A stretch of DNA of 52,165 bases from IMG/VR virus record IMGVR_UViG_3300032053_000109, positions 1 through 52,165 of that record; one strand, written 5' to 3'. Every line of letters starts with the position of its first letter. Positions within the stretch are counted from its first letter, which is position 1. Both the position numbers and the translations under genes were made by a program. This document shows positions 2,156 to 16,940 of the stretch, one piece after another. The stretch comes from a virus. The notes beneath the pieces are model-generated. The model was not told the origin of the DNA, did not search any database, and was given only the letters and a program-made list of their open reading frames with translations.

Positions 2156-2203
2156 AGTCTCATCAGTTACCGCTATACGGTAAGACCCCGAAGGGTTTCG
2201 ACT
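2156..2203 (-). ncRNA. Type II hammerhead ribozyme
   Basis: Read on the minus strand, the full hammerhead core is present in circularly permuted order. AGUC (stem II 3' side) is followed by GAA, then ACCC-UUCG-GGGU (closed stem III with the A15.1-U16.1 pair), then cleavage base C17. A closed stem I UUACCG-UAUAG-CGGUAA follows, then CUGAUGA and GACU (stem II 5' side, with the usual G10.1-C11.1 pair). Stem II is the open helix, which makes this type II. Cleavage is expected between positions 2184 and 2183. The element begins at the TAA stop of the upstream 63-residue gene and ends at the AAAAGGAGG of the downstream gene, so it would cut the polycistronic mRNA between them. Upstream UUUU could extend stem II with the AAAA next to the ribosome binding site, leaving a 5' bulge able to contact loop I. 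Confidence 0.88.
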
Positions 2204-10796: not shown

Positions 10797-11449
10797 ATGT
10801 AAAAGATGTTGAAGAAACCATGGATGGAACTAATCAAGACCGTTTGGTATTAATTTTTAATCGTCAGAGAGAACTAATGGAAAAGTACCACCATATTGAA
10901 AAAAATCTTAGGTTAACTCCAGATTGTCCCGTAAGCCTTCATGATTCTAAGGGGCAATTACTATTAAAAGATTTTGCCTGGAGAACCACAGAAGAACTAG
11001 CCGAGGCCATAGATGCCATTGAGAATGGTGAAAGCGAAGAACATATTAAGGAAGAAGTAGCTGATGCTTTACACTTTTTAGTAGAGATGGGAATACTCTC
11101 AAATATTACTCCAGATATTCTATTAACACTTGACCCTGATGAGCTGCCACCTCATGACTATTTAGAAACCTTATTCTCCCTGTGGACCTATGAAAATAAA
11201 CTTAACTACTCGGAAGCCTTTACCCAATTTATAGTTAGGTTGGGTATGGTATGTCATACTCTAAAGAATAAACCTTGGAAACAAACTCAAATGTTAACTG
11301 ATATAAAGGAATACACTACCCGATATATTGAGACTTTCCATTACTTTATTAGGTTTTGCATCTCCATTGACCTACAACCCGAAGAATTATTTCAGCTATA
11401 TTTTAAAAAATCAAAAGTTAATGCTTTCCGTATTAGGTCGAGTTATTAG
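10793..11449 (+). CDS. dut: Dimeric (MazG-fold) dUTP diphosphatase
   Basis: The sequence fits the all-alpha dimeric dUTPase family found in phages and trypanosomatids. RQRELMEKYHHIE (about residues 25-37) is followed by LLLKDFAWRTTEELAEAIDA (57-76) with the EExxE metal site, IKEEVADALHFLVEMGIL with the second ExxD metal site, and the C-terminal YFKKSKVNAFRIRSSY. It would hydrolyse dUTP (and dUDP) to dUMP, feeding thymidylate synthesis and keeping uracil out of phage DNA. The ATG overlaps the kinase stop. Neighbouring dCMP deaminase, thymidylate-synthase-like proteins and the glycosylase-polymerase fusion support the pathway. Confidence 0.85.
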   Translation: MNVKDVEETMDGTNQDRLVLIFNRQRELMEKYHHIEKNLRLTPDCPVSLHDSKGQLLLKDFAWRTTEELAEAIDAIENGESEEHIKEEVADALHFLVEMGILSNITPDILLTLDPDELPPHDYLETLFSLWTYENKLNYSEAFTQFIVRLGMVCHTLKNKPWKQTQMLTDIKEYTTRYIETFHYFIRFCISIDLQPEELFQLYFKKSKVNAFRIRSSY

Positions 11450-14134: not shown

Positions 14135-14572
14135 ATGAATAATAGAATAAATAGAGATTATTTATGCCTTCAAATAGCCAAATTAATTGCACTTAGAGGA
14201 ACTTGTAAAAGGGCTCAGGTAGGAACAGTCATAGCTATTAATGGAAGAATCATCTCTACTGGATATAATGGGGCCCCTAGTGGGCTTCCCCATTGCATTG
14301 ACTGGGGATGCATAATTGGAGTTGATGGAGGTTGCATCCGTACCTCACATGCGGAGGCTGGAGCCATTGCCTTTGCTGCAAGAAGAGGATTATCCCTAGA
14401 AGGGGCAACTCTTTATTGTACTCTGTCACCTTGTTTGAACTGTGCTAAACTCATTATTAACTCAGGAATTAAGGAAGTTATATACTGTGAGAAATATAAA
14501 AATCACGAAGGACTTGATCTTCTAGATGGAGCAGGAATTGTTCATCATCATATGGAGGTTCAGGATGCCTAG
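14135..14572 (+). CDS. dCMP deaminase
   Basis: The zinc site is complete: SHAEAGAIAF (HAE, about residue 70) and TLSPCLNCAKLIINSGI (PCxxC, about 95-98). The N-terminal 'LCLQIAKLIALRGTCKRAQVG' and 'STGYNGAPSGLPHC' are typical of dCMP deaminases. The enzyme converts dCMP to dUMP, feeding the adjacent thymidylate synthase; phage enzymes are often regulated by dCTP/dTTP. Its 3' end overlaps the polymerase gene start by eight bases. The start ATG has only a weak upstream ribosome binding site (GGAGGTATTTTC), which suggests translational coupling with the upstream gene. Confidence 0.9.
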   Translation: MNNRINRDYLCLQIAKLIALRGTCKRAQVGTVIAINGRIISTGYNGAPSGLPHCIDWGCIIGVDGGCIRTSHAEAGAIAFAARRGLSLEGATLYCTLSPCLNCAKLIINSGIKEVIYCEKYKNHEGLDLLDGAGIVHHHMEVQDA

Positions 14573-16940
14573 AGATAAACTCTGTTCAAGCTGTGAATTA
14601 GGAGATACAACCCACCAAGTATGTTCTTGGGGACAAGGTCCTAAGAATGCAAAAGTTATGTTAATAGGAGAAGCTCCTGGAGCACGAGAGGAAGACCTAG
14701 ACAAACCTTTTCAAGGTAAGTCGGGAAAATTACTGGAGGAATTTCTACTAAAGGCGGGCCTTCATAGAAAAGACCTTTATATAACAAATGCAGTAAAGTG
14801 TAGGCCCCCTGATAATAGAACACCCTCCAAGAAAGAAATTGCTATTTGTAAATACCATCTTGAGGATGAGATTAAAGAGATAAAGCCGCAGTATATTTTA
14901 GTATTGGGAGCTACCGCTTTTACTAGTATATTTAATAAAGCAGGTATTATGGAGCATAGAGGAAGTATTATAGAAAAAGGTGGTATTTCATACCTAATAT
15001 CTTTACACCCTTCAGCTGCCTTGAGAATGCCAAAATTAAGGCCTCTTATGGAGGCAGACCTAACTCGATTCAAACAGTTAATGGATGGAAAACTAGAAGA
15101 GAATTCTTCCATGGAATGGACTCTAGTAAATGATATCCCCAACCTAAAGGCTTTTATAAGAGATTTAAAAAGTGCAAAATCCATAAGTTATGATATTGAA
15201 TGTTCAAGCCTTAATGGCTTAGACCCCAATTCTTATATATATTGTATTGGGTTCTCCACCAAACGTAGGAGTTGGGTTATTCCCTTTGATTATCCTGAGA
15301 GTAACTTTAGAAACAAGAATGTTCAATATAAATTAATTAGGATTATAGAAAAGGTCACAAGGGGAAAAAATTTAATAGCTCATAATGGGAAGTTTGATAA
15401 TAAGTGGATAAAATCCAAGTACGGACTTCAGATGGAACAAACTTTTGATACCATGTTGGCTTCCTTTATCCTGGATGAAAACCGTCCCCATGGATTAAAG
15501 CCTTTATCCAAGATGTACCTTAATGCATCCGACTATGACCTTAAATTTCCTTTTGATGTAAGAAATGTACCGCTAGAAACTCTGGCTAAATACTGTGCTT
15601 ATGATGTTAGATATACGCTTCAATTATATTACCTATTTAAAGAGCAGTTAAAAGAGGATGCTCACCTTAGTAGAGTATTTTATGGTTTAATAATGCCAGC
15701 TTCTAAATACCTAGAGCTAACTGAGACTGAAGGGGTATATATTGATCAAGAGAAATACCCCGTGGCATTAAAACAAATTACACAGGAAGTATCAGATTTA
15801 GAAAAAGAACTATGTAAAATTGCTGGCAAGACTCTTAACTGGAATTCTTCACCTCAGATGGCCAACTTGCTATTCACCGAACTAAAACTTCCCGTATTAG
15901 AAACTACACCCACTGGAAAGCCTTCTACCTCAGGAGAAAATGTTTTGCCTAGACTTAGAGATAAACATCCAATCATTAATGTACTTTTGGATTATAGGGA
16001 GAAAATAAAATTATCCCAATTCCTTATTAGTTGGGGAACTATGATGGATAGGACGGGTAGAGTACATCCTAGTTTCAAATTACATGGTACCGTTACCGGA
16101 AGATTATCCTGTAAAGACCCTAACTTTCAACAAGTTCCCCGAGATGTATTCCTTAGGTCATTATTTACAGCTCCCCAGGGTTGGGTATTTGTAGAGGCAG
16201 ATTATTCACAGGTGGAACTTCGAGTTGCCGCTATGTTAGCAAATGAAACCAATATGAAGAGAGCATATCAGACGGGGCAGGATATTCATCAAAATACCGC
16301 CTCTTTAGTAATGGGTATTCCAATGGATAAGGTAACGAAAGAGGATAGAAAGAAAGCCAAGGCCGTAAATTTTGGATTTCTATATGGAATGAGTTCCAAA
16401 AAATTCAAGGATTATGCTCGAGATAAATACCAAGTAACTCTCACTGATAATGAAGCTTCTCAATTTAGAACCAGATTCTTTGATGCTTATCCTGAATTAT
16501 TAGCCTGGCATGACAGACAAAGAAGAATAGTTCAGAAGTATGGATATGTTAGAAGCCCCATTGGTAGGAAGAGAAGGCTTCCCGAAATTAATTCACCGGA
16601 TAGAGGAGTTAAGGCTGAGGCAGAAAGGCAGTCGATAAATAGCCCAGTACAAGGATTTGCCTCTGATATGTGTTTATTCTCAATGGTTAGATTATCTCAA
16701 GAAATTCCTAGGGATCAATTTAAAGTGGTTGGATTAGTACATGATGCTATGATGGGTATTATAAAAGAAGAATATGTTGACCTCATAGTTCCCAAAATAA
16801 AGCAGGTAATGGAGGACATGGCAACTGTGGAGAAAGTGTTTTATACTTCCATATCAGTACCTATTGAGGTAGATGTAAAAATAGGACCTTGGGGGTCTGG
16901 AAAAGATTGGACTCCAAATAAACCTAAAGAGAGAGAATAG
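14565..16940 (+). CDS. Uracil-DNA glycosylase / family A DNA polymerase fusion
   Basis: I place the start at ATG 14565, after ATGGAGGTTCAGG, giving 791 residues. Residues 1-180 are a family 4 uracil-DNA glycosylase: CSSCELGDT, GEAPG (35-39), DKPFQGKSGKLL, NAVKCRPP (75-82) and SLHPSAALR. The Cys set can hold an Fe-S cluster. Residues about 185-370 are a 3'-5' exonuclease with ISYDIEC (Asp210, Glu212), AHNGKFDN and YCAYDVRYT. Residues about 380-791 are the polymerase: motif A VEADYSQVELR (544-553), motif B KKAKAVNFGFLYG (596-608) and motif C GLVHDA (723-728). It replicates the phage genome. The glycosylase fusion, known also in SPO1-like phages, implies uracil surveillance tied to synthesis. 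Confidence 0.92.
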   Translation: MPRDKLCSSCELGDTTHQVCSWGQGPKNAKVMLIGEAPGAREEDLDKPFQGKSGKLLEEFLLKAGLHRKDLYITNAVKCRPPDNRTPSKKEIAICKYHLEDEIKEIKPQYILVLGATAFTSIFNKAGIMEHRGSIIEKGGISYLISLHPSAALRMPKLRPLMEADLTRFKQLMDGKLEENSSMEWTLVNDIPNLKAFIRDLKSAKSISYDIECSSLNGLDPNSYIYCIGFSTKRRSWVIPFDYPESNFRNKNVQYKLIRIIEKVTRGKNLIAHNGKFDNKWIKSKYGLQMEQTFDTMLASFILDENRPHGLKPLSKMYLNASDYDLKFPFDVRNVPLETLAKYCAYDVRYTLQLYYLFKEQLKEDAHLSRVFYGLIMPASKYLELTETEGVYIDQEKYPVALKQITQEVSDLEKELCKIAGKTLNWNSSPQMANLLFTELKLPVLETTPTGKPSTSGENVLPRLRDKHPIINVLLDYREKIKLSQFLISWGTMMDRTGRVHPSFKLHGTVTGRLSCKDPNFQQVPRDVFLRSLFTAPQGWVFVEADYSQVELRVAAMLANETNMKRAYQTGQDIHQNTASLVMGIPMDKVTKEDRKKAKAVNFGFLYGMSSKKFKDYARDKYQVTLTDNEASQFRTRFFDAYPELLAWHDRQRRIVQKYGYVRSPIGRKRRLPEINSPDRGVKAEAERQSINSPVQGFASDMCLFSMVRLSQEIPRDQFKVVGLVHDAMMGIIKEEYVDLIVPKIKQVMEDMATVEKVFYTSISVPIEVDVKIGPWGSGKDWTPNKPKERE

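Follow-up and report, generated by a model that had tools for sequence, protein, structure and literature searches.

A short-loop type II hammerhead ribozyme at the junction of two genes in a phage genome

Hammerheads and other self-cleaving RNAs compared with the window element

The closest described systems are the type II hammerheads of Perreault et al. and Rfam family RF02276, which share the core, the permutation (stem II open) and the phage-gene setting of the element reported here and often occur in arrays. Cleavage has been shown for related type II arrays in vitro and for a single triple array in E. coli; Perreault et al. already proposed in 2011 that phage transcripts are processed into single-gene messages, and they found many hammerheads without a pseudoknot, for which other contacts must exist (PMC3088659). 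A 2017 review describes type II contacts as usually Watson-Crick pairs and states that no type II structure exists (PMC6155905). The element in the window, i.e., the whole stretch of 52,165 nucleotides analyzed here (positions 1 to 52,165 of IMG/VR virus record IMGVR_UViG_3300032053_000109), is a further type II hammerhead. It differs from the RF02276 type in that it has no pseudoknot between loop I and the 3' tail, carries a UNNNG pentaloop together with an A 5' of stem II, and falls below Rfam detection. To what open-licence papers say on the role of hammerheads in phages and bacteria, the present analysis adds three testable points: type II elements of phages crowd at stop codons, hairpins cap both ends created by the cut in the type II permutation alone, and a large short-loop subclass shows a simple covariation between loop and flank.

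Hammerheads of types I and III, known from satellite RNAs, viroids, retrozymes, and phages, have the same catalytic core in another permutation. Their loops dock by noncanonical contacts and not by a Watson-Crick pseudoknot (PMC6155905), as is also predicted for the window element. RiboJ, an engineered sTRSV hammerhead joined to a hairpin, cuts before a ribosome-binding site, which is likewise the predicted behavior of the window element, and gives products that all start at one 5' end with a hairpin; mRNA and protein are raised, an effect for which the terminal hairpin is the proposed reason (PMC6206723). Unlike the window element, RiboJ is engineered from a satellite RNA and follows a promoter instead of separating two genes, and its upstream product is not capped in the same way. 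The glmS ribozyme is also a self-cutting RNA before a gene, giving a message with a 5'-OH. It differs from the window element in its fold, its metabolite cofactor, and the decay to which it leads; the window element has no ligand-binding part.

Structure and gene context of the element at 2156 to 2203

Read on the minus strand, positions 2203 to 2156 are AGUC-GAA-ACCC(UUCG)GGGU-C-UUACCG(UAUAG)CGGUAA-CUGAUGA-GACU and contain all invariant hammerhead bases in the type II order. The core consists of CUGAUGA (2166-2160), the GAA segment G12A13A14 (2199-2197), the pairs G10.1-C11.1 and A15.1-U16.1, and C17 (2184) at the H17 position. Stem III with its UUCG loop (4 bp, 2196-2185) and stem I with its UAUAG loop (6 bp, or 7 if the terminal U-G is counted, 2183-2167) are closed by loops, and stem II (4 bp) is open, with 2203-2200 labeled in the feature list as its 3' strand and 2159-2156 as its 5' strand. 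Cleavage is predicted between C17 (2184) and U1.1 (2183) from the H17 position in the hammerhead consensus. The minimum-energy fold of the isolated 48 nucleotides is exactly the hammerhead structure. A scan for the three hammerhead permutations gave 2156-2203 as the sole convincing match in the window, and shuffled windows gave 0.01 matches with stems of such length per window. The identity, position, and cleavage site given in the initial annotation are thus upheld by the reading of all core bases and three helices together with the scan and the covariance model described below, and the type II hammerhead at 2156-2203 is confirmed as real.

No Rfam family matches the element, neither at curated thresholds nor in a local search at E values up to 10, and a search of the whole record with RF02276 likewise gave no match at the gathering cut-off of 37 bits. 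The initial annotation had named the lack of a covariance-model hit as grounds for refutation; taken literally, this outcome occurred, but it does not refute the hammerhead, since 21 of 22 short-loop relatives in one set escape RF02276 as well. In control searches, 7 of 9 elements with a long loop I scored above the cut-off, compared to 1 of 22 elements with a 17-nucleotide stem-loop I (one set) and 3 of the 11 elements on contig L251; the short elements L001 and L006 score 26 and 24.5 bits. RF02276 mostly detects the long-loop, pseudoknotted form, so the missing match reflects the model and not the element.

A separate covariance model, built from 41 short-class relatives, themselves predicted elements, with the window excluded, matches the window element with 63.1 bits and an E value of 1.1e-16, E values being rough by the tool's own statement. 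The next best match in the 52 kb (35774-35740, 14.4 bits) has no stem I, lies within a coding sequence, and was rejected. The 41-sequence alignment shows two-sided changes in 12 of 15 pairs, and 99.7% of cells pair, a share that is inflated because the filter used to collect the relatives required 4 pairs in stem I and 3 in each of stems II and III. Each of the pairs beyond this requirement (columns 13-24, 14-23, 33-41, and 34-40) still has between 4 and 22 two-sided changes. The covariation score of the alignment was reached by none of 500 shuffles, and slides came nowhere near it.

The element lies in a short operon on the minus strand. A promoter-like site (TTTACA-17-TATAAT, 2427-2455, 11 of 12 consensus bases) precedes a gene of 63 amino acids (2203-2394), to which no family could be assigned, a DUF3781 match being below the cut-off. 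Its UAA stop (2203-2205) is found at the 5' edge of the ribozyme, with stem II starting at A2203. The sequence AGGAGGA starts a few nucleotides 3' of stem II within the Shine-Dalgarno region AAGGAGGA (2143-2152, by sequence reading), followed by the ATG at 2138 of a gene of 127 amino acids (1755-2138) and by a third gene of 60 amino acids without an assigned family (1571-1753). The intercistronic position proposed initially is therefore correct. The claim that the ribozyme fits exactly between stop and ribosome site stands for the ribosome site, which follows the ribozyme, but not for the stop, whose last A is already part of stem II. The SAP-like domain ascribed to the downstream protein was recovered as an N-terminal Rho_N domain (PF07498, 32.0 bits, cut-off 24.9). 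The window copy, in which one promoter-like site, one short gene, the ribozyme, and a gene that has a ribosome site to itself follow each other, is a compact, clean case.

A promoter/leader cassette of 113 nucleotides is found twice, at 1424-1536 and 2385-2497, with 90% identity. Both copies contain TTTACA-17-TATAAT and then AAGGAGGA and an ATG before a small minus-strand gene, and a terminator-like hairpin lies upstream of the copy at 2385-2497. Elsewhere in the window (14526-16940), a phage family A DNA polymerase of 804 amino acids combines an N-terminal uracil-DNA glycosylase and a 3'-5' exonuclease in one protein (Pfam). The best terminase match of the phage is to Bacillus phage BalMu-1 (32% identity), and its primase shows 37% identity to Pseudomonas phages. 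No close relative of the phage was found and hence none carrying the element in place; searches with the 127- and 218-amino-acid proteins of the window gave no relatives in viral contigs, and those with the former gave none in phage records.

The short-loop subclass and the placement of phage relatives

Three pattern scans of viral contigs gave at least about 240 loci, and with a stem requirement, at least 389 candidates, at least 365 of them distinct; these counts are samples, and the relatives are predictions. Two forms can be told apart by stem-loop I. Among the matches listed, elements with a stem-loop I of 21 to 26 nucleotides show a pseudoknot of at least 4 pairs between loop I and the 3' tail in 84% of cases, compared to 26% with shuffled tails, whereas the corresponding values for the 17-nucleotide class are 7% and 9%. 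The window element, with a 17-nucleotide stem-loop I, reaches at best 3 Watson-Crick pairs between loop I and the tail 3' of stem II, which compete with stem II, and a pseudoknot of at least 4 pairs is absent. Its sequence, with a 6-bp stem I, a UNNNG pentaloop, and a 4-bp stem II, places it in the short, non-pseudoknotted subclass of natural type II hammerheads.

In the place of a pseudoknot, the short class shows a rule linking loop I to the 5' flank of stem II. Among the matches listed, UNNNG loops occur with an A 5' of stem II in 96 of 96 elements, ANNNA loops occur with a U on both sides of stem II in 28 of 29, and the first base of loop I is complementary to the 5' flank (U-A or A-U) in 137 of 139. 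Counting one element per contig leaves 82 U-A and 19 A-U combinations with one exception (Fisher p 1e-19, matches listed); the search patterns fixed neither of the two bases. The window element obeys the UNNNG rule with its UAUAG loop and A2204, which is the second base of the UAA that ends the upstream gene. Loop I base U2177 is predicted to dock on A2204, the physical contact being inferred from the covariation. The short-loop subclass appears to be large and mostly missed by Rfam, and the loop/flank covariation points to its tertiary contact. Six possible pairs between loop I and the upstream UUAUAC (2208-2213), seen by eye, were set aside because the tail pairing known for the class involves the opposite flank and because the upstream stretch is itself able to fold into a hairpin.

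The position between two genes had been called unusually clear, but phage type II hammerheads typically occupy junctions of this kind. Among the matches listed, the stop codon of an open reading frame of at least 40 amino acids lies at the 5' edge in 248 of 342 elements (73%, compared to 4.8% at random), a ribosome site with a start follows within 60 nucleotides in 284 of 342 (83%, compared to 16.7%), and both occur together in 210. Stops at the edge number 247 on the sense strand and 27 on the antisense strand (matches listed). A count within open frames (175) is not informative because any of three frames counts. One phage contig of 67.6 kb carries 11 elements in 5 kb, most of them directly 3' of a stop and 5' of the next gene.

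The same edge test on sampled phage contigs gave a stop in 44 of 104 type I and in 0 of 39 type III elements among the matches listed, these samples coming from a different search pattern and different hosts than the type II sample. The comparison of types I and II uses stop codons only; ribosome-site counts for type I are biased by the scarcity of Shine-Dalgarno-like sites in several type I contigs. The type III elements without an edge stop include those in L256, L274, L278, L281, and L283, which suggests that the placement rule of type III differs from that of types I and II.

Probable cutting at the gene join and alternative explanations

The element is probably a cutter of the polycistron at the gene join, both product ends being capped by hairpins and the level and translation of the two messages being set independently. 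The ribozyme would cut the phage message in cis and cotranscriptionally at the join of the 63- and 127-amino-acid genes. The upstream product would end in the GC-rich stem III hairpin with one overhanging C bearing a 2',3'-cyclic phosphate, and the downstream product would start directly at the stem I hairpin with a 5'-OH, followed by a free ribosome site. Both products would be capped because stems III and I are both closed by loops and the cut falls between them; types I and III leave one product end as a dissociating strand. Each gene would thus become a separate message with protected new ends, so that level and translation could be set independently, as with the engineered RiboJ insulator. 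The complete core and stems, the model match, the loop/flank rule, the placement at the stop edge, the sense bias, and the 11-element array argue for this reading, as do the cleavage of related arrays, the effect of RiboJ, and the GC-rich stems: among the matches listed, stem III of the relatives is 86% GC and stem I is 69% GC, compared to 52% for their loci, a composition that would suit hairpins at message ends. The hundreds of relatives at gene joins of the same kind suggest that these phages cut multigene messages into single-gene ones with protected ends. From this, we infer cleavage of the window copy, end protection, and independent stability and expression. Against end protection, the GC-rich stem III could serve folding instead, and messages with a 5'-OH are degraded in some hosts, with glmS in Bacillus as the precedent. 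The competing fold of the uncut RNA described below and the failure to find the element in a close relative of the phage also count against the cutter.

The overlap of the stop codon with the ribozyme opens an attractive alternative, in which a terminating ribosome would block folding, since the stop belongs to the ribozyme, and cutting would report upstream translation; the RNA would be cut only ahead of the arriving ribosome or in the absence of translation of the upstream gene. The stops at or inside the 5' edge in the 248 relatives counted above are consistent with such gating, and among the matches listed, the stop lies in stem II in 99 of 286 elements and within 3 nucleotides in another 115, and the ANNNA class uses the ribozyme's own U-A-G as the stop in 17 of 27. 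Compact phage genomes alone would give such overlap without any coupling, and the gating is considered unlikely. A wider proposal, by which phage type II hammerheads would be ribosome-gated cistron separators that share the docking base and the first stem base with the stop, couple cutting to termination, and leave end-capped products, the short class docking through a swappable U-A pair and not a pseudoknot, is tentative and rather doubtful.

The fold of the uncut RNA bears on another explanation. For an 82-nucleotide region, the thermodynamic optimum is not the hammerhead (-17.3 kcal/mol) but a fold at -21.2 kcal/mol in which the ribosome site pairs with the CCUUC of stem III, and RNA that has not been cut could be caught in this fold. 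The hammerhead stays the best fold only up to the point at which the ribosome site is transcribed, and the predicted openness of this site in the window rises on cutting from 0.17 to 0.71 (0.30 to 0.65 with other flanks). The uncut RNA might accordingly mask the ribosome site of the 127-amino-acid gene through CCUUC and GGAGG, with cutting as a permanent activation. Over 271 elements among the matches listed, however, the mean gain of 0.052 equals that of controls with swapped 5' halves (0.050), and unmasking was rejected as a general function; the masking in the window is probably a coincidence of CC(UUCG)GG and AGGAGG, which makes such a switch improbable. The established 5'-OH chemistry of hammerheads would also allow the opposite outcome, in which a 5' exonuclease degrades the exposed downstream message and lowers expression of the 127-amino-acid gene, as for glmS in Bacillus. 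Strong GGAGG sites, promoter-like hexamers, and the distant Bacillus phage terminase match fit a Firmicutes host only weakly, and the stem I hairpin blocks the 5' end and leaves no single-stranded lead; destabilization is very improbable. An inactive relic or chance fold would agree with the silence of Rfam and with the missing close relative that could show conservation in place. The rate of chance matches and the E value of the model stand against it, all core bases are intact, and the tertiary rule is obeyed although it was not used to find the element, so that this explanation is hardly credible. Separation of the two messages by cutting at the gene join is therefore preferred.

Some contigs with related elements carry further features. 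On contig L251 (G001:C1, 2574-2876, minus strand), 2 of 11 hammerheads have CCGAUGA in place of CUGAUGA (U4 to C) with intact stems and may be inactive or slow within an otherwise intact array. L247, a contig of 8 kb binned as a Lokiarchaeota MAG, contains 4 type II candidates, most of them U-flanked with ANNNA-like loops, and may be a mis-binned phage contig. In L043, an abiF RNA match above the cut-off (997-1033, 47.2 bits) is found on the same phage contig as a type II hammerhead. In L003 (11017-12156), two hammerheads (11017-11075 and 11364-11416) are followed by subthreshold matches to twister-P1 (11686, 30.7 bits) and twister-P5 (12103, 25.7 bits), possibly different ribozyme classes with the same job along one phage transcript.
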